From Antedon mediterranea (taxonomy: Eukaryota; Echinodermata; Crinoidea; Comatulida; Antedonidae), in contig NC_092674.1 in the NCBI RefSeq assembly GCF_964355755.1, positions 19,432,001-19,496,000 of the forward strand: DNA of 64,000 nucleotides, written 5' to 3'. Below the pieces are notes generated by a model. It saw nothing but the letters and a program-made list of their open reading frames with translations. It did not search any database and was not told the DNA's origin. Position 1 is the first letter of the stretch, and the number at the start of each line of letters is the position of its first letter. Positions 4,160 through 62,406 of this stretch are shown here, piece after piece. Position numbers and translations under genes: made by a program.

Positions 4160-6081
4160 GGATTAGGCCAACTTCGGCCACAGACAATTTCGGCCACAGA
4201 CAATATTACTACCATATCTATGGAACGCCCATAGTGCCATTGATAGGGGAACAATGAGACACGACAATGTAATACAGGATTATCGATTTCATTGCGTTTT
4301 ACTTTTGTTTTTACACAGGAAAACACGGACACAGACAAACTTGGCAATTAATTAATTAATTAATTAATTAATTAATTAATTAATAATGAAAATAAAATAC
4401 TAACACGTATTTTGTAGCTAGGTGGCATGATGAGATAAGAAACGAAGAATTACGTAGATACCGATATTTCAGAGTACAAAAAATACAATACGGTTGAAAT
4501 TAAAATGTATAGTTTTTACAAATAAAAGAAATGAATTGAATGAGGCCTAAGTGATACTAATTGTATGTACATTTTTCTATAAATATAAAACGAATTGAAG
4601 TACGTAGGGATATATACTAATTTTATTGTGTACAATAAATATAACTTTGAAGGAATAAGAAACGGAAGAACAAAGTGGTTAAGAATACGATTTATTTTAT
4701 CGGAAGAAACAATTGAAGAAAGTATATAATTATTAAGAATTAATTTGTTGTAAGATGTAAATGAAACACTGGTAAATAAATGTTAATAGAAATGCCTGCG
4801 TTGTTTTTGCGTGTAAAATTTTACCTAATAAAATGAACTTGAAATATTAGTAAAACACCACTACCCAAGAGGAATTATGCGAAGGCATTGAAGAATTTTT
4901 GACTGTGTGCGTCATGAGAAGGTACGTGGAAAACCCCGTCATATGGGTGGTTGATTTGTCCGTAGTCATTGCATTTTGCCGGGGATTCCCCATCATTTCC
5001 GTAGTAGCCTATTTATCTTCATTTCCCTACGTCCGAAATATTGGGCCGAATTTCCGTAGTAATTACTGATGTTCCGAACTTTGAAATAACAATGTTTGGT
5101 TGCTTCTTTCTGCAAATTTCTTTCATATTTTCTTTTCTGGAGTGTGGTTTAAGCAACACTTGTACAGTTTAGTGGATAAATGAAAATGAATTTTTTAAGT
5201 TGTTGTTTTACTGACTTACTTGCATTTATTGAAAAATAATACAATTCAACGTTTTGCTCAATATATTTATAGCAGCAATTATTAATTGATAATAGGCCTA
5301 GTAATTAGTTTAGGGACTTCCTCTGACGTTCGCATTGAACGCAACAAATGTTATCCTTAGTCGCATTTTTATCCGAATTATTACTCATTTTGTTTGTACT
5401 GTATTTTGACATGTTAAAATATGTTAAATGCATATCGCCGCAAATTACTCGATTATTATTTTTATGTTGGGTCTGATATGTTCGTTTTATTTATGCACCT
5501 GTGTTCTTAAGACATGACCTGAGCTCCATAATAAAACATTTAATTACTCCTGTGTTGTATTAAAAACCAATCAAATGAAGACGACAAAGTTTTATTAAAT
5601 TTATTTTTTTTTATCACTAATTTTCTTCTTGATTCTGCTTGTATTGATGTGTGAGTTCCTGATATTCCTCTTTGTTCCTTAGGTCACCTAAGCAATGGAA
5701 GGAAAAACGTTTTAATTAAATTTCTTTTTTTTTCTTAGCATTTCTATTTCTTTTTTCATAGCCAAACTATTAATACGTCTGTACTAAGAGAGTATTTAAC
5801 TGTGTCACTGACAGTTGAATTTGTTTTTCGCCAAGACTTCATGATATAACTAAACTGGAATGGAAACAACAAATCTAATAATAAATGCAAATTGTAGTGG
5901 AATAACGTTAAGAATGATAACACTGTAATGGTAGTAATCGTCATAAAAAATACTATCCAACAAAGCATGAGATGCGATAACTAATAGCAAAAACAATAGC
6001 ACGGTCTAATATATGCGTGAATGGCGCGCCATAGAAATCTGTTGTGGCCGAAACTGTCTGTGGCCGAAACGGTCATATGCC
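4160..6081. mobile_element. DNA element, 8-bp TSD family, copy 1 (in gag)
   Basis: 1922 bp flanked by a perfect 8-bp direct repeat GCATCCTT (4152-4159 and 6082-6089). Each end has an 18-bp outer segment beginning GG, then a tandemly doubled motif TTCGGCCACAGACA. The left end continues to TATGGAACGCC; the right end, read inward, continues to CTATGGCGCGCC. The same architecture occurs at 48548-50852. No transposase-like frame is present. A 27-codon frame on the minus strand near 5307-5390 containing CCVQCERQ is the only suggestive coding stretch. An 8-bp duplication with GG ends is compatible with Merlin; hAT and P elements, which also make 8-bp duplications, usually start with CA. The superfamily is unassigned. 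Confidence 0.85.
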
Positions 6082-9000
6082 GCATCCTTAACCGTAAAAG
6101 AATGTGTAGATTATGATACCTTAAAGAAGGCAATCTTAGAAAAGTATGATGTGTCCGCTGAGACCTACAGATTTAAATTTAGAAATTCAAACAGAGTTAA
6201 AGATATGTCCATCAGGGAATGGCTGAATGAGCTCTCCCATTATTTAAAATGTTGGATGAAATGTGCTAATGTAAAAGAAGATGATGCTGCAGGCATTATT
6301 GAAATGATTATAATGGAACAGGCACTTGATAAAATGCCTGAAGATCTGAGGCTTTATCTTAGAGATAAACAAGTAAATAAGAGCAATGATATGGCTATGA
6401 TAGCCGATGATTATATAGCTAATAGAGGTGGCCGTGGCTATTGGAATGCCGTAAATTCTGAAAATAAGCCTACGTATTATAAGGGCCAAGAAAATAGTAA
6501 ACCTAAGAATAGTACGACTCAGAATAACCCTGGAGCTAGGCAGCAAGGATACAATAGGTATCGCGGAAGGGGAGGCAAATTCCATAACTATGGTAGAAAT
6601 TTCCAACAGAGAGAACCTTCAAATGAATGGATTAATGGCCTATGCTTTAATTGTAAGGAGAAGGGACATAAAATAGGGGATTGTCCTAAGATGGTAGCAA
6701 AAGGAAAGACTAGTGACACTAAGAAGGGCCCGAATGTGAAAGATGGCTTAAGATGTGAAGGAATAAAATCAGATAGACCCCAAGTAGTTATGGATAGTGT
6801 AGAAAATAAAATGGAGAAGTGTATAATACCAGGAAAATTAGAAGGACAGGATATAACTATGCTTAGAGACTCGGGATGTACCCAGTCAGCTGTTAAGGAA
6901 AGTCTAGTGCCTAACAAATGTTACTTGCCAGGAAAATGGGTTACGTTAAGAGGTATAGGAGGCGATATTACCGTCCCCTTAGCTGAGGTAGCGATAGAAA
7001 GTAAGATAGTGACAGGAAAAGTGATAGTAGCCGTAATCGAAGGATTACAGAGGGACATGTTATTGGGTCATGATTTGGACCAGAATTGTGGGGAAACAAT
7101 GGCTAAAGAAATGTTCGTCCTAACTAGGGAGCAAGCCAGAATAGAAAATGATGTTAGAATACAAGACGAAATGATATTGTTAGGGAAAGATAGTAACTTT
7201 AAGCCGATAGAAGAGCCGCCTAAAGAAACTAATGTACAATTGTTGAAAACAGTAGTAAATGACAACAAAGTAAATAAAACTAAGTGTTTAGATGATATGA
7301 ATGGAACAGAAATGAATAATTTGTTTGACGAAAATGAGGATAAAGCTAAAGATAAAACAGTCAAACATAAAACTTATGAACAACAGCACAAGCTGAACCT
7401 AACTAAACAAGAACTGATCAAATTGCAAACTAAGGATGACTCACTCAAAGGAGTGTTTGACAGGGTAGTCCCTATAGAAGAAATAGGTCAGCATAGGGTA
7501 TGTTTCTTTATGAGACAAGGTATATTGATGAGAAATTGGAGGAGTATTAAAGATAAGAATAACCAAGTGGAACAGATTGTATTACCTACTCAGTGTAGAC
7601 AGGGTGTATTACACTTAGGTCATAATGTGCCATTTGCAGGTCACATGGGTGTTGAGAAAACTAAAAGTAGGGTCCTGAACCAATTCTATTGGCCAGGTAT
7701 ATTTAAAGATGTGGTAGTCTATTGTAAAGTCTGTAAGGAATGCCAAAAGGTAGATAAGGGTAAAAGTAAAAGGAAACATACTTTGATACCATTACCGATT
7801 ATAAGTACACCATTTAAACGTATAGCGATAGACATTGTTGGACCCTTATTTAGAACAAGCCGTAATAACAAATATATGCTTACTATAATTGACTATGCTA
7901 CGAGATATCCGGATGCTATACCGTTACCCAATGTTAGAGCTGAAACAGTAGCCAGGGCTCTAATAGAAGTCTTTACTAGAGTAGGATTACCCGAAGAGAT
8001 TGTACATGATCAAGGAACTAATTTCATGTCTTCAATTATGCAATCTATATGTAGTATGTTGGGGATTAATCAATTAAAGACTACAGTGTACCACCCCCAA
8101 AGCAATGGGCTTGTTGAAAGATTTCACGGTACATTGAAAAATATGATAAGGACACTTACAGTTAAGCAAAGAAAAAATTGGGATAACTACATACCCCCCT
8201 TTCTGTTTGCATACAGAGAAGTTCCTAGTAAAGCGACGGGCCATTCACCTTTTAAATTGCTTTATGGTAGAGAGGTGAGGGGACCCTTGAGTTTACTCAA
8301 AAGTAATTGGGTAGAAGATGAAGAAACATCTACTGATGTTATCAAATACATGTTAGACATAAGAGAAAAAATGGAGGAATTAATGAAAGATGCTAATGTA
8401 AACAAACTTGAACAACAAGAAATTATGTCCCACAATTATAACAAGAATGCTATTGATAGAGAATTTGTAGAAGGGGACAAAGTGTTGATATTCTTTCCAG
8501 TAGGAAATAGTAAGTTAGACAGTAAATGGCAAGGCCCCTTCACTGTTACTAAAAAGGTCAATGATGTAAATTATGAAATATACATAGGAGGTAGAAGAAA
8601 AGAAAAACAAATTCTACATGTTAATATGTTAAAGAGATGGTATGATAAAGTAGAAATAAGTAAAGATGGTTATTATGTAGTGACAAATGTTCAGTCGATA
8701 GAAGAAGTAGACTTAAATGAAACAGTCCATGACAATGAGTTAGATAGTGAAATAGACATAGGATTGTCTTATCATCAATCACAAACATGGAGAGATGTTA
8801 ACGTTAGTAGTAATTTAAATGATACACAAACTAAACAATTAACAGAATTGTTAAAGTACCAACAGAATGTATTCTCGGATGTACCAGGTAGAACTCACTT
8901 AGTGACACATGAAATTAAGACTAATGGTGAAATGCCTATAAGGCATAGGGCATATAGAACGCCCCAAGCATTAAAGGGTAAATTGAAAGAGGAATTAGAT

Positions 9001-10191
9001 AGTATGTTGGCTATGGGTATAATAGAACCTACTGTTAGTGCCTATGCTGCACCTATTATTGCCCTGAAGAAAGGCCAGAATCAAATTAGAATGGTGACAG
9101 ATTTTAGATCACTAAATAAGACTACACAATTTGACCCTTATGTTATGCCTCGCATAGACGAAATGTTGGATGAGGTATCATCCGCAATATACATAACTAC
9201 GTTAGATCTAACTAAAGGATTTTACCAGGTGCCTCTGGATCCTAAGACCAAAGACAAATCAGCATTTATTACACAATTTGGACAGTATTGTTACAATGTA
9301 CTTCCATTTGGTATGCAAAATAGCTCTAGTACTTTCCAAAGATTAATGGATAAGGTATTACAAGGTACTGAAGGATATGCTAAGGCATATATAGATGACA
9401 TATGTATTTATAGTCAAACTTGGAAAGATCATATTTTTCATTTGAATGATGTATTAGAAAGATTAAGTAGTGCTGGATTGACAGCAAAGCCTTTGAAATG
9501 TAAAATTGCCTATGCACAGGTAGAATTTCTGGGGCATAAGATTGGTAATGGAGAAATTAGACCCATGATTGATAAGGTTGAGGCTGTGGAAAAGTTCCCC
9601 AGACCTTTGTCTAAGAAACAAGTCCGATCATTTCTCGGATTAACGGGCTATTACAGAAAATTTGTACAGAACTATGCCGATATTGCTAAGCCATTGATTG
9701 ATTTAACTTTAAAGAGTAAAAGTAATACCGTTAAGTGGAATGAACAATGTGAAAATGCCTTTGTAACTTTAAAGAAACGACTTACTGATGATAATGTATT
9801 AAAAGCCCCAAATTTTGATAAGATATTTATATTGCAAATCGATGCCTCAAATTATGGCATAGGTGCAGTGCTGAGCCAAATAGATGGTGAGGGTAATGAT
9901 TATCCCATTGTGTACTTAAGTAGAAAGTTATCTGTACATGAGCAGAGATATTCTGTGCCAGAAAAAGAGTGCCTCTCTATTGTTTGGGCTATCAATAAAC
10001 TTAAGTATTATCTGTATGGTTGTGAATTTCAAGTTCATACTGACCACCAGGCATTGAGATGGATGGACTCAATGAAGGGTGCCAATGTTAGACTTATGAG
10101 ATGGGCTCTGTTTTTACAAGGATATAAATTTAAAGTTATTTACAAGAAAGGATCATTAAATGGAAATGCAGATGGATTAAGTCGTGCATAA
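6082..10191 (+). CDS. Gag C-terminus, protease, integrase, RT and RNase H polyprotein
   Basis: Domain order, counting residues from 6013: end of capsid (about 24-150), one zinc knuckle CFNCKEKGHKIGDC (about 211-224), aspartic protease with RDSGCTQSAV (about 285) and LGHDL. The integrase follows, with an HHCC zinc module (about 533-580), core motifs AIDIVGP, HDQGTNF and NGLVERFHG for the D,D,E triad, and a GPY/F-type segment KWQGPFTV. Reverse transcriptase comes next (MVTDFRSLN, LDLTKGFYQVPL, AYIDD at about 1127), then RNase H (QIDASNYGIG, HTDHQALRWM). All catalytic residues I can check are present and the frame is open, consistent with recent activity. The first 23 codons of the open frame, 6013-6081, belong to the inserted DNA element. 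Stop TAA is at 10189. Confidence 0.95.
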   Translation, partial: ASLTVKECVDYDTLKKAILEKYDVSAETYRFKFRNSNRVKDMSIREWLNELSHYLKCWMKCANVKEDDAAGIIEMIIMEQALDKMPEDLRLYLRDKQVNKSNDMAMIADDYIANRGGRGYWNAVNSENKPTYYKGQENSKPKNSTTQNNPGARQQGYNRYRGRGGKFHNYGRNFQQREPSNEWINGLCFNCKEKGHKIGDCPKMVAKGKTSDTKKGPNVKDGLRCEGIKSDRPQVVMDSVENKMEKCIIPGKLEGQDITMLRDSGCTQSAVKESLVPNKCYLPGKWVTLRGIGGDITVPLAEVAIESKIVTGKVIVAVIEGLQRDMLLGHDLDQNCGETMAKEMFVLTREQARIENDVRIQDEMILLGKDSNFKPIEEPPKETNVQLLKTVVNDNKVNKTKCLDDMNGTEMNNLFDENEDKAKDKTVKHKTYEQQHKLNLTKQELIKLQTKDDSLKGVFDRVVPIEEIGQHRVCFFMRQGILMRNWRSIKDKNNQVEQIVLPTQCRQGVLHLGHNVPFAGHMGVEKTKSRVLNQFYWPGIFKDVVVYCKVCKECQKVDKGKSKRKHTLIPLPIISTPFKRIAIDIVGPLFRTSRNNKYMLTIIDYATRYPDAIPLPNVRAETVARALIEVFTRVGLPEEIVHDQGTNFMSSIMQSICSMLGINQLKTTVYHPQSNGLVERFHGTLKNMIRTLTVKQRKNWDNYIPPFLFAYREVPSKATGHSPFKLLYGREVRGPLSLLKSNWVEDEETSTDVIKYMLDIREKMEELMKDANVNKLEQQEIMSHNYNKNAIDREFVEGDKVLIFFPVGNSKLDSKWQGPFTVTKKVNDVNYEIYIGGRRKEKQILHVNMLKRWYDKVEISKDGYYVVTNVQSIEEVDLNETVHDNELDSEIDIGLSYHQSQTWRDVNVSSNLNDTQTKQLTELLKYQQNVFSDVPGRTHLVTHEIKTNGEMPIRHRAYRTPQALKGKLKEELDSMLAMGIIEPTVSAYAAPIIALKKGQNQIRMVTDFRSLNKTTQFDPYVMPRIDEMLDEVSSAIYITTLDLTKGFYQVPLDPKTKDKSAFITQFGQYCYNVLPFGMQNSSSTFQRLMDKVLQGTEGYAKAYIDDICIYSQTWKDHIFHLNDVLERLSSAGLTAKPLKCKIAYAQVEFLGHKIGNGEIRPMIDKVEAVEKFPRPLSKKQVRSFLGLTGYYRKFVQNYADIAKPLIDLTLKSKSNTVKWNEQCENAFVTLKKRLTDDNVLKAPNFDKIFILQIDASNYGIGAVLSQIDGEGNDYPIVYLSRKLSVHEQRYSVPEKECLSIVWAINKLKYYLYGCEFQVHTDHQALRWMDSMKGANVRLMRWALFLQGYKFKVIYKKGSLNGNADGLSRA

Positions 10192-56942: not shown

Positions 56943-58570
56943 TTATACCATACGGTATCCCATGCAAAAGTGTAATTTTGAAATTCTATCTCCCATTTTT
57001 TTTTGTGCTATAGGAGTTGATATTAAATTTTCCACAAATAAATTATAAAATAGTTTTGCATTAAGTTGTTTTGTATGAAGCCAAAAGCAATCGGTGTTTG
57101 TTTGATTATTTACATGTTCACCATTCAAAATAATTTCCTTCCATGATTGTGGTGGCATTCATTAGCCCTTATATATTCAATTAATCCATTTTGTTTCTGT
57201 GATAGTAATGGTAACACTTCATTCATTGGTAATAATAATATTCTCCTTAATTATGTCATTCATTGTTCTAAAGCCTGCATCAAGCCAAACTTTGAAATAG
57301 ATTGACTTTCCATTTAACCGTATACATTTATTTTCCCACAATTGTTGGTTTTTAACGTCTTCAATGTTTTGTGGGTCAGACCAGTTAAAGTTGTTAATAT
57401 TAACTATAGCAATTAGCATTTCTCTATAGAAAACAGGCAATAGTTTTAGATCAGAATGATCTTCATTGTTAATTTGAGTGATATTAACAGTATACTTAAT
57501 AGGGTGCATACAATAATTCGGTATACATTTCCATTTTCCTGGATCTGGGCTAAGGAGTCGCTTAACCCAGTTTAGCTTCAATGCTTTGACTTTTGCATTA
57601 AAATTAATCATATTTAAACCACCTGTATCTGTTTTTCTATTGAGTGTGGTTCTTTTAATCTTTTCTCGTCTACCACTCCACATAAAACTGTATATTATCT
57701 TTTCCACCTTGGGCAAGATATATTTTGGTACGGTTATAAATGCTAGCATTGTATATTAGTTTAGATATGGCTAGAGTTTTAATTATAAACATTTTTCCAA
57801 AGAACGTAAGATTTCTTCTTTTCCATAAAGATATTTTCTAAAGAAATAATCTTATCGTCCCAGTTTTTCTTTTCACATGATTTGTTATCGTATCCAACAT
57901 AAATTCCTAGAAACTTTACAGGTTTCTTTGTCCATGTAATATTAGGCCTACATGGTTCTGACATATTATTATGTTTACTCGCACCAATCCACATACCATT
58001 TGTTTTTCCTTTTTTCAATCTTAAACCTGATATTCTACAGAATAGCTAAATCTCATGTAAAAAGCAGATCAACGATTCTTTATCTTTTGTAAAGATGATA
58101 GATCGTCTGCAAGCTGAGCTATCATAACAGAACATTCTTCATCGTTTATTTTTGGTAATTCAATTCCTTTACATAGTGGATTGTTCCGTATGTTACAGGC
58201 CATCAAGTCAACCACTAATAATAAATAACAAGGCCGATAAAGGACACCCTTGTCTTATTTCACATTCCATATTAACGCTTTCCGACATCCAACCATTATT
58301 TACCATTATACTTTCTGTATCAGTATATATTACTTTAATCCATTTAATAAAAGAAGGACCAAATCCAAATTTTGTTTTTAACATTAAATTTCTATTTACC
58401 GAATCAAACGCTTTTGCAAAATCGAGGAAAATTAAGGCGCCGGGTTTGTTTTTGATATTAGTAAAATAAAGTATATCTTCTACAAGTCTTATATTTTCCC
58501 CCAAACCTTCCAGTAATGTAACCTTTTTGATCAGAATGTATAATAGTTAATATTACTTTTTGTAATCTGA
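56943..58570 (-). pseudogene. Decayed LINE reverse transcriptase, second family copy
   Basis: Minus strand, in order: 58504-58208 (FLDFAKAFDSVNRN, EIRQGCPLSALLF), about 58145-58085 (MIAQLADDLSSL, the catalytic LADD block), 58018-57779 (GKTNGMWIGASK, KFLGIYVGYD), 57749-57219 (TVPKYILPKVEKIIYSFMW, GGLNMINFNAKVKALKL) and 57158-56943 (SWKEIILNGEH, KLFYNLFVENL). Stops and shifts separate the blocks. The arrangement suits L1/Tx1-like or L2-like LINE C-termini; the clade is not decided. The 5' region with the endonuclease is missing. Confidence 0.85.
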
Positions 58571-58861
58571 TTGATCTTGATCCTGATAAAAAAAAAACAA
58601 TATTAACAGTTGATTACAGCGTTCTGTGTTTGATTGGCAGCAGTGCTTTAGCATATGCTAGCGCGTTGAAAACCGTCGACGTATCAGTGTGTTATTTAAT
58701 CCATGGTAACAGTTGTTGGATCTCAATTAAATAAGAAAGGTATTAAGACCACTGGAGCTTTTACGGTATTTTCAAATCCAAGTTAACATCCCTTGCAGTA
58801 CAATATGTGTTAATACTATTCATTTACAGGACAACGTTATGAGGGGGAATAAGGTACCACC

Positions 58862-61800
58862 ATGTTTGTGGTAAAGATATGCCTATTGCTTGTTGTCTTT
58901 GGAGTGATGTCATTATCAGCGGCAAAAACATGCAAAAAGTTATTTCCTCCTGGTACAACTACTCCTAATGCTGAACTCATGGGAGCTCTATACATCTCTG
59001 ATCCCGATCCATCTACAGGATATATACAAGCCACACATTTAAAGCTGTATTGGTCCCAGGTACAGTGGACTACAGCAGCTGGTTGAAAAGAGAACATGAT
59101 GTCTATGAAGCTATAGCAAACCTTTGGTCATATATAGCACGTATGGTGGTTTCAGACGTGGATGTTATATATGGTCATTATAAGGTTACTGAGGCATTGA
59201 GAACCCAGAAACCAATAGGAGTTATTGATTTTACAGCATTAACCTTCCTTTTTTACCGACTTGGGAATAAATTTGACGAAAACAAAAATACATGGCCTTA
59301 TTCTTGTTTTAACAGTGAGTTTTTTCTGTCCTTCTATTATGATCTTCAAAACTTCGACCAACTTGTATATTATCATGACATTGAGATAGTAAATGGTAAG
59401 TGGATTCTAACTAGAGAATTCATGTCTCTAACATCTATCTTTAAATATTCAAACCTGGGTGTCGATACCAACTTAAGAGAGTATATACTAGAGGATCTCT
59501 TTAATCCAACATTGCTAAATTATATTCCAAGCAAAGCTGTTAGCAGTGTATTTTATAATTCTGAATTAGCATGGAAATCTATTACTAAAATTATCGAAGG
59601 TCCCGAATATCTTACTTCATTTACTAACTGGAGGTCCGGATATACTCAAGTAGAACAGGTAGCAACTAAAAAATGTTTGGAACTATCAGGTTCTGTAGTT
59701 GCCACTGATAATTATTGTAAAGCTAGACATGTTACAGTTAAACTTAAAGCATGTCGTATTTTGAATAATGTTACGCCTTGTATGTATGATCCTTTGTTCC
59801 AAAAATATTTTGAATACGGCAGATTTGCTTCTTACAAGGAATTGACCGTATTACAAAAAGTATTTATAAAAACAAGAAGTGTAGTTACTTCACTTAAAGA
59901 TAGGGTTTCTGCTCAAGATCTGACTGGAATCGCGAAATTTGTTGCAGAATACAATCCTTATGCTGACATTGCTGCGAATCAATGTGTTCGCAGTTGGTCA
60001 AAATCGTTTGATTGTCAGAACAACATAGGGTGCAATGGCAACAGAGCCTCGCTAAAGTTTGATTGTAACGGTGGCTTTACCTGTAGAATCAACACCATGT
60101 ACCGTCCAGACTGTTTGATTCGATTCCTAATAGAAGAAAGTGGGAAACTACTGTTAGTAAAACCATCAAAGCAATGGGCAGATCCAATCGTTCAACGGGC
60201 TAAGTATAACTTAATGACATGGCTGTCTTATTTGCCAATGGCTAATTTTGTTACATTTGATTCTAATGATATCAATGATGTCATTCTATCAACACAATCA
60301 ATTATTAATGATTACGTCACAAGTTATGATATTGCTGGCCTAACGACAATTTCATCCGATTTTCCACCAGCTAAATTTGTTCCACTTTCAGATAAAAACG
60401 CTGCTTGTCAAACAACAACACCTATCCAGGCTTACATCATAATCTTAGAACCTTTGTTGAACAGCGTTCACGTGTTTCTGGAAGCATTTAAACATGGTCA
60501 GAAATCGTCCGTAAAGGTTTTAAATCCAACTGTTAATTACAGAAAATTAATCGAACAACTTCAGCAAGATTGTGTTCAACAATACATTAATAAACAAACA
60601 CAATCTTATTTTAATGACATTACCAGTCAGCTTGAACAACATTTTGGATCACTATCAAATTACTTTTCGTCTTTGGCCGATTACGATGGGCAGAAAGCAA
60701 CAGCTGATATTGCGTATATTGATGGGAGACTTGAAACGTTTAAACTCCAAGTTAATAAACTAGTCCCTAAAGTAGAATCTTCCTTTTCTACAGTTTTAAA
60801 GTTAGCTATTGGAGCAAATACCGCCGAATTAGCACAAATAACCGTTCAAATTGGTGTTGCCCTTGCGTCTGCAAGCAATCCTATAGGAAAAATAATTGGC
60901 GATTCCAGTCTTCTTGATTTAATTGACATGCTCAACCAATTTGCTCAGGCAGCAGTGACTACGACTATTCTTGTGAGACTTAGTGAAAATGATTTTCCAC
61001 AGCTTCAAAAACAAGCAGAAGACATTATGACAGGATTCCTTGCTAACGAGAAACATCTAGACAATGCCAAATCACTAATTGATGGTATAAGAGATGGTAC
61101 GTCAAATATGGATGACATAGCAGTGGAGTTTCTTGAGAAATACAATGCATACGATCCACAAGTTTTAAAATCTGACCTAGCTTTATACGGAGAAAAATTT
61201 GAGACCGTTGCTGAAACATTATGTGAAGCTGCGTTTTCAGGAACTACTGCTGTTAGTGCTTTGGTTGAAGTAGGATTAGCTACCAGTGGAGATTGTTTTA
61301 AAATAAGCTCAATGATTGCTGAATTAATTACTGTTTATGAAGAGCTTTACGATTTCCAATTTGATCTAATGGACACCTTAGCTGACGCAGTCCGCGCCAA
61401 TATAGCCCATGAAAAGGCAAATGAAATGAAATTGATATACACTAGTGGTGTTAGAGTTGATCAAGCCTTTTTACAGAGTAGTGCTGTCAACACTTACCTG
61501 GTTTCTGTTATGCATATTTGGAAAATTGTTATTGAATATTGTGATGTTTTAACATACACAAGTGGAGGTGCGGTGCCTACAAAGTGTAATACTGCTATCA
61601 AAAGCCCATCTAATGAAAATGTTATTCAAGTTCTTGGTTATGACCCTATTCCACTTTGTCACGTCAACAACGAAATTACAGATTTCCATGATATACCAAC
61701 TAAACCTAGTGGAACTGGGGATAAAGCGTATATCGATCTCGATAAACTTTACAATCTTGAAGAAGTCACGTTCCAAATTCCAAATCATCAATGGCTTCAA

Positions 61801-62406
61801 ACCCATGGCTGGGTAGGGTCTTCAGAAGGCGAGAAAGCTATCTATATAAGCAGATTTGAATTGTATCTACCTCCTATGTTGGGTACTTCTCATCACACAG
61901 TTGAAGTCACAGCAAAACCAAGTTTACCTAACTATTTGACAAACGGTGGAACTAAGTATATACTACCTGTTGATGGATTCAGCTGTAGATATAACGAAAA
62001 CAGTCCCAACTGTTATGACGATTTTGTAAAGAATCCATATACTTTATGCAACACAAACCCGTTGATTCAGCTATGCGTTACCTCCTATGGTTATTTTGAC
62101 AGAAAGGTTCAACCATCTATATACAATGAATGGAAAGTATCAGTCACATCTATGCCTAAGAATCAAGTTGCTCCAAAGCCCACTACTGATTTCAAGCTAC
62201 AGGTTGGTATAACTATGTGCAGACTTGACTTAGCTAACAGACGACGTCGCCACGTACAAGTGCCTTTACCACAACAAGTTAGTTTGAATAGAAACCGAAG
62301 AGGTACCCAGCATTGTTGCAGCTCGAACCAATACTGGAATGGCGCAGCTTGTACTACTTGTCCTTCTGGTTCAAGTCAAAGACAGAATGGCTATTATTGT
62401 CAGTAA
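58862..62406 (+). CDS. Large secreted protein of unknown family, frame break near N-terminus
   Basis: ATG 58862 has a strong context (ACCACCATG). An acceptor-like TTCATTTACAG at 58819-58829 suggests a 5'-UTR intron. The first frame (58862-59086) starts with a signal peptide (MFVVKICLLLVVFGVMSLSA) and stops at 59084. A second frame, open from 59002, runs to TAA 62404 and has no stops over more than 1100 codons. The overlap of 85 nt contains UUUAAAG (59038-59044) in the phase needed for a -1 shift. The body has Cys-rich blocks near residues 200-370 of the second frame. Residues about 500-830 are long helices around an Ala/Gly-rich hydrophobic stretch (about 590-625). The C-terminus has RRRR and NRNRR, possible furin-type sites, before a small Cys-rich tail (CCSSNQYWNG, CTTCPSGSS). 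I do not recognise the family. Confidence 0.75.
59038..59044 (+). other. Candidate -1 frameshift heptamer
   Basis: T TTA AAG read in the frame of ATG 58862 fits X XXY YYZ. A -1 slip here enters the long downstream frame 40 nt before the first frame's stop. Seven bases downstream, GGTCC (59052-59056) can pair with GGACT (59067-59071) around a 10-nt loop. This stem is weak. Confidence 0.35.

Follow-up and report, generated by a model that had tools for sequence, protein, structure and literature searches.

The gene at positions 58862-62406 of the window (the whole stretch of 64,000 nucleotides from Antedon mediterranea that was analysed) carries the signal peptide and the body of a secreted protein in two different reading frames. 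It is probably one of two duplicates in which a recent deletion has shifted the frame, which makes it a young pseudogene or a null allele. Of the family's two copies, one has leader and body in one frame; the other, in the window, is short by a net 19 nt at the point where its two frames part, and its body has evolved under past coding constraint. From these observations, we infer the direction of the change, its youth, and the loss of function. The parts of the gene in the window are the following.

58830-58861, plus strand: probable 5' untranslated segment; the AG of a candidate splice acceptor stands immediately before it, at 58828-58829, following a run rich in T.
ATG 58839, stop 58872-58874, plus strand: upstream frame of 11 codons, overlapping the main ATG in another frame.
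58862-59086, plus strand: leader frame with the signal peptide, from ATG 58862 to TGA 59084-59086, 74 codons and a stop.
59002-62406, plus strand: body frame, 1134 residues with 0 internal stops, preceded by a TGA at 58999-59001.
59026-59041, plus strand: switch zone, where the sister copy has a net 19 nt more; the sole frame-breaking difference in the gene.
59038-59044, plus strand: heptamer TTTAAAG, in the phase of a -1 slip.

Relative to each other, the leader and body frames are offset by -1, and 85 nt belong to both, exactly as the first-pass annotation had described them. The 74-codon frame begins with a hydrophobic leader, and the conserved N-terminal stretch ends in SDPDPSTGY. The body frame has its earliest ATG at 59143. 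Near its C terminus, the body protein shows the basic clusters RRRRH and RNRR and a Cys-rich tail. Judged from the sequence, the transcript is likely spliced at the acceptor-like site before ATG 58862, and a comparable site precedes the ATG of the sister copy by 15 nt. Unlike the window copy, the sister has no ATG between this site and its start. As the acceptor lies close to the ATG, trans-splicing comes into view; no match was found to a single sea squirt leader sequence, a result that says nothing on other leaders.

Several repeats and putative mobile elements were observed in the same window. On the minus strand, at 57219-58546, lies a broken reverse-transcriptase-like frame in three ORFs of 178, 88, and 112 aa, with motifs such as FLDFAKAFDSVNR recognized by eye; it is probably a decayed non-LTR element and ends about 280 nt before the likely acceptor site of the gene. 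A short repeat at 58621-58709, just upstream of the gene, occurs on many contigs with 77-91% identity (38 of the 40 scored DNA matches, a lower bound on the number of copies). Farther away on the plus strand, positions 6010-10191 hold a single frame of 1393 aa, in which a zinc knuckle, a protease, and an integrase followed by a reverse transcriptase can be made out by eye; in gypsy-like elements, it is uncommon for the integrase to precede the reverse transcriptase. The plus strand also carries, at 569-1228, a frame of 219 aa with a tandem repeat of about 13 residues (IQFSLVGCRTQLN-like).

When the window's own genome (18 contigs, 354 Mb) was searched with protein queries, the family was found at two places only: contig 5 holds the window gene and contig 1 a second copy. 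This sister copy (G000:C1:5328859-5332296 plus the stop, to 5332299) consists of 1146 codons in one frame that covers leader and body: its own leader (MYPVTALCVLLVVAMMSTATA...) is followed by the SDPDPSTGY stretch and then by the uninterrupted body. The two genes share the leader, the C-terminal Cys-rich tail, and the organization in a single long exon, and their proteins are 67% identical. The sister differs in being read in a single frame throughout and in having 19 more nucleotides in the switch zone; it also lacks two stretches of 51 nt and one of 30 nt that are present in the window copy. Within the stated limits of the search tool, no third copy was found in the same genome with the sister protein (at E-values up to 10) or with its C-terminal 286 residues, and a two-row profile found no relatives in viral contigs or prokaryote genomes. 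The first-pass annotation had proposed a secreted protein of unlisted family, and this view agrees with the database searches: three protein queries matched 0 Pfam families, and the best E-values in the PDB, searched by sequence and with the two-row profile, were 0.55 and 0.29, neither of them significant. An AlphaFold single-sequence model of the body alone reached a pLDDT of 34 and is unusable.

A few hundred bases upstream of the sister gene lies a diverged fragment of an 18S rRNA gene (positions 1900-2180 of locus L003 on G000:C1), which matches RF01960 with 64 bits against a gathering threshold of 50 and has 19 matches in the same genome, mainly on contig 2. A candidate second signal peptide upstream of the sister gene (MNGIGLLLL...) was rejected, as it sits inside this fragment.

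Both halves of the window gene match the sister protein, each in its own frame. Homology follows the leader frame to about 59025, with the two copies still agreeing at residues 43-54 (ALYISDPDPSTGY region), and follows the body frame from about 59045. Between these points, the window copy lacks a net 19 nt relative to the sister. The placement of the gaps varied among four pairwise scoring schemes and MAFFT (22 nt missing at 59026 and 3 nt gained at 59041 in MAFFT; 13 nt at 59026 plus others in another scheme), while the net difference was always -19 nt. In the whole-gene MAFFT alignment, eight of nine gaps are multiples of three, the exception being the 22-nt gap at 59026. Outside the switch zone, this holds for all seven gaps (51, 3, 30, 3, 3, 51, and 6 nt), for which the chance, calculated by hand, is about 1 in 2000 if the three length classes are even. 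The pairwise schemes add small self-cancelling gaps in the signal peptide and a gap at the cut end, which the MAFFT alignment does not contain. The length change at the break is thus not divisible by three, and the intact single-frame homolog expected of a frameshifted duplicate is present on contig 1.

It had been suggested from the open frame that the body is under coding constraint or very young, and the comparison with the sister copy bears out the constraint. For the body, dN is 0.215 and dS 0.65, giving a dN/dS of 0.33 over 1088 aligned codons (Nei-Gojobori method, own script; alignment is poor at the very start of the body), and for the first 54 leader codons, a gap-free stretch with few sites, the ratio is 0.66. 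The long open body is not a product of chance, since the sister conserves it at that ratio. Together with the lack of any stop, the ratio indicates that the body was selected as coding sequence until very recently. Likewise, an open body whose length changes come in threes points to coding evolution throughout almost the whole period since the duplication. No further decay, either by stops or by other frameshifts, was found in the 1134 codons. If the body is now neutral, the absence of stops and frame-breaking indels bounds the time since the break at less than 0.005-0.010 substitutions per site (nine settings, combining transition bias and indel rate), which by hand calculation is about 2-3% of half dS, i.e., of the branch since the duplication.

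A young deletion would account for these observations as follows. In the ancestor, leader and body would have shared one frame, an arrangement still present in the sister on contig 1. A net 19 nt would then have been lost from the window copy within 59026-59041, which would have put leader and body out of frame, so that ordinary translation would give only a secreted peptide of 74 residues ending at 59084-59086. Because the body of 1134 codons is undecayed, the break would have to be very young and fixed, or else a null allele present in the individual that was sequenced. Frameshifted duplicate genes, such as young unprocessed pseudogenes and loss-of-function alleles, share with the window gene an intact sister, a single frame-breaking change, and a frame that is otherwise kept. 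The window gene differs from them in that its body shows no other damage, which places it at the very young end of such duplicates or among those that are not fixed. Two points speak against a deletion: the body is wholly open without decay, and an in-phase heptamer, expected by chance in 5-7% of cases, sits in the switch zone. The reverse event, in which an insertion in the sister copy fused two ancestral frames, is possible in principle.

A slip in the assembly or its consensus is an unlikely alternative to such a deletion. Here, a real in-frame length difference would be combined with one base lost or gained in assembly, and the gene itself would be intact. The wholly open and constrained body resembles that of a living gene, and a net difference of -19 nt is one base off a multiple of three; on the other hand, a long homopolymer is absent from the switch zone, and two separate events would be needed at one place. 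The first-pass annotation had warned that a one-base indel or a sequencing error would mimic the split. As a warning about indels this was sound, but one base alone is insufficient because the net difference to the sister amounts to 19 nt.

The same annotation had named an intron that restores one frame, and a short or alternative intron acting in the mRNA has to be regarded as very improbable. The region does contain 69 candidate GT-AG introns of at least 30 nt that join the frames without a stop, and an acceptor-like site ends at 59018. All 69, however, match the sister protein worse than the plain join does (best score 385 vs 419), as they cut away stretches that code in the sister, and the best candidates have poor donors according to an uncalibrated splice matrix of our own making.

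Programmed -1 ribosomal frameshifting at UUUAAAG, the reading that the first-pass annotation had brought forward, would give two products, the 74-residue peptide and a secreted protein with a hand-counted length of about 1181 residues (61 + 1120). Genes with programmed -1 frameshifting, known from gag-pol-like elements and PEG10, combine a slippery site of the form X XXY YYZ with a downstream structure, typically a stable hairpin or pseudoknot 5-9 nt beyond the site. The window gene shares with them a heptamer in phase and two frames that overlap with an offset of -1; it differs in having G at position Z, an undistinctive structure over 60-100 nt, and, as the one relative found, a gene read in a single frame. 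On these grounds, together with the net loss of 19 nt exactly at the break, we consider it highly doubtful that the window gene is translated in this way, even with its body intact.

The heptamer itself was correctly recognized: TTTAAAG at 59038-59044 has the required direction and fits the X XXY YYZ phase, lies inside the zone where homology changes frame, and is the only in-phase heptamer of the overlap. A slip at this site scores 275 against the sister protein, which is the joint best of the junctions tested; yet the 25 best junctions span 59020 to 59062 with scores of 266-275, so that the fit fails to single out the heptamer. In-phase heptamers occur 12 times in the 1180 codon positions of the gene because they amount to no more than codon pairs of the body frame such as Phe-Lys, and the one at the switch is probably also a chance Phe-Lys codon pair. 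The probability of at least one in-phase heptamer in an overlap of the 85-nt type is 18% for random intervals of the window and 27% for the body in the same frame relation, higher than the one in ten at which it had first been put; for the seven positions of the narrower switch zone, it is 7% (body) and 5% (window). In the sister copy, where translation requires no shift, the corresponding 85 nt are free of such heptamers.

The usual slip consensus, in the passages of PMC2569925 and PMC4737148 that describe it (the latter for eukaryotes), has a Z other than G, against which the UUUAAAG of the window is disfavoured. UUUAAAG has nevertheless served as a shift site in the biophysical experiments outlined in parts of PMC5009743 and PMC6321510, and the heptamer is therefore not inert everywhere. 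In nuclear genes, conserved frameshifting is rare, with few known cases, according to the abstract of PMC12551717.

Turning to the downstream structure, the stem had been called weak, and folds computed without pseudoknots give the same picture. The 80 nt from 59045 fold with a z of +0.68, and 153 of 200 shuffled sequences were equally stable or more so. When 16 windows were compared with the body, three of 40 nt (starting at 59048, 59050, and 59052) ranked within the 6-10% most stable, which speaks for a shift, while the other 13, namely the 40-nt window from 59054 and all windows of 60, 80, and 100 nt, were ordinary, with 19%-58% of body windows at least as stable. In these pseudoknot-free folds, no distinctive structure of the kind expected downstream of a -1 site was found over 60-100 nt, nor is the arrangement conserved, as the sole relative found is read in one frame and lacks the heptamer.

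Least probable of all is that the body is made alone as a leaderless protein from an internal ATG (59143 or later), for which the body frame is indeed open, but which would lose the leader and 47 residues including the conserved REHD..EAI.NLWSY, whereas the sister protein is secreted. Neither splicing nor an internal start rescues the protein as the sister is built.

If the gene is a young frameshifted duplicate, as read here, the finding carries little weight beyond the warning that chance is often enough to explain a slippery heptamer found in phase within an AT-rich overlap; an intact copy sought in the same genome can settle such split-frame cases. There is a slim prospect that the in-phase UUUAAAG next to the deletion rescued the duplicate, with a small share of ribosomes making the full protein and the single-frame sister representing the ancestral state. 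If true, the window gene would offer a natural example of the origin of programmed frameshifting in a cellular gene of an animal.
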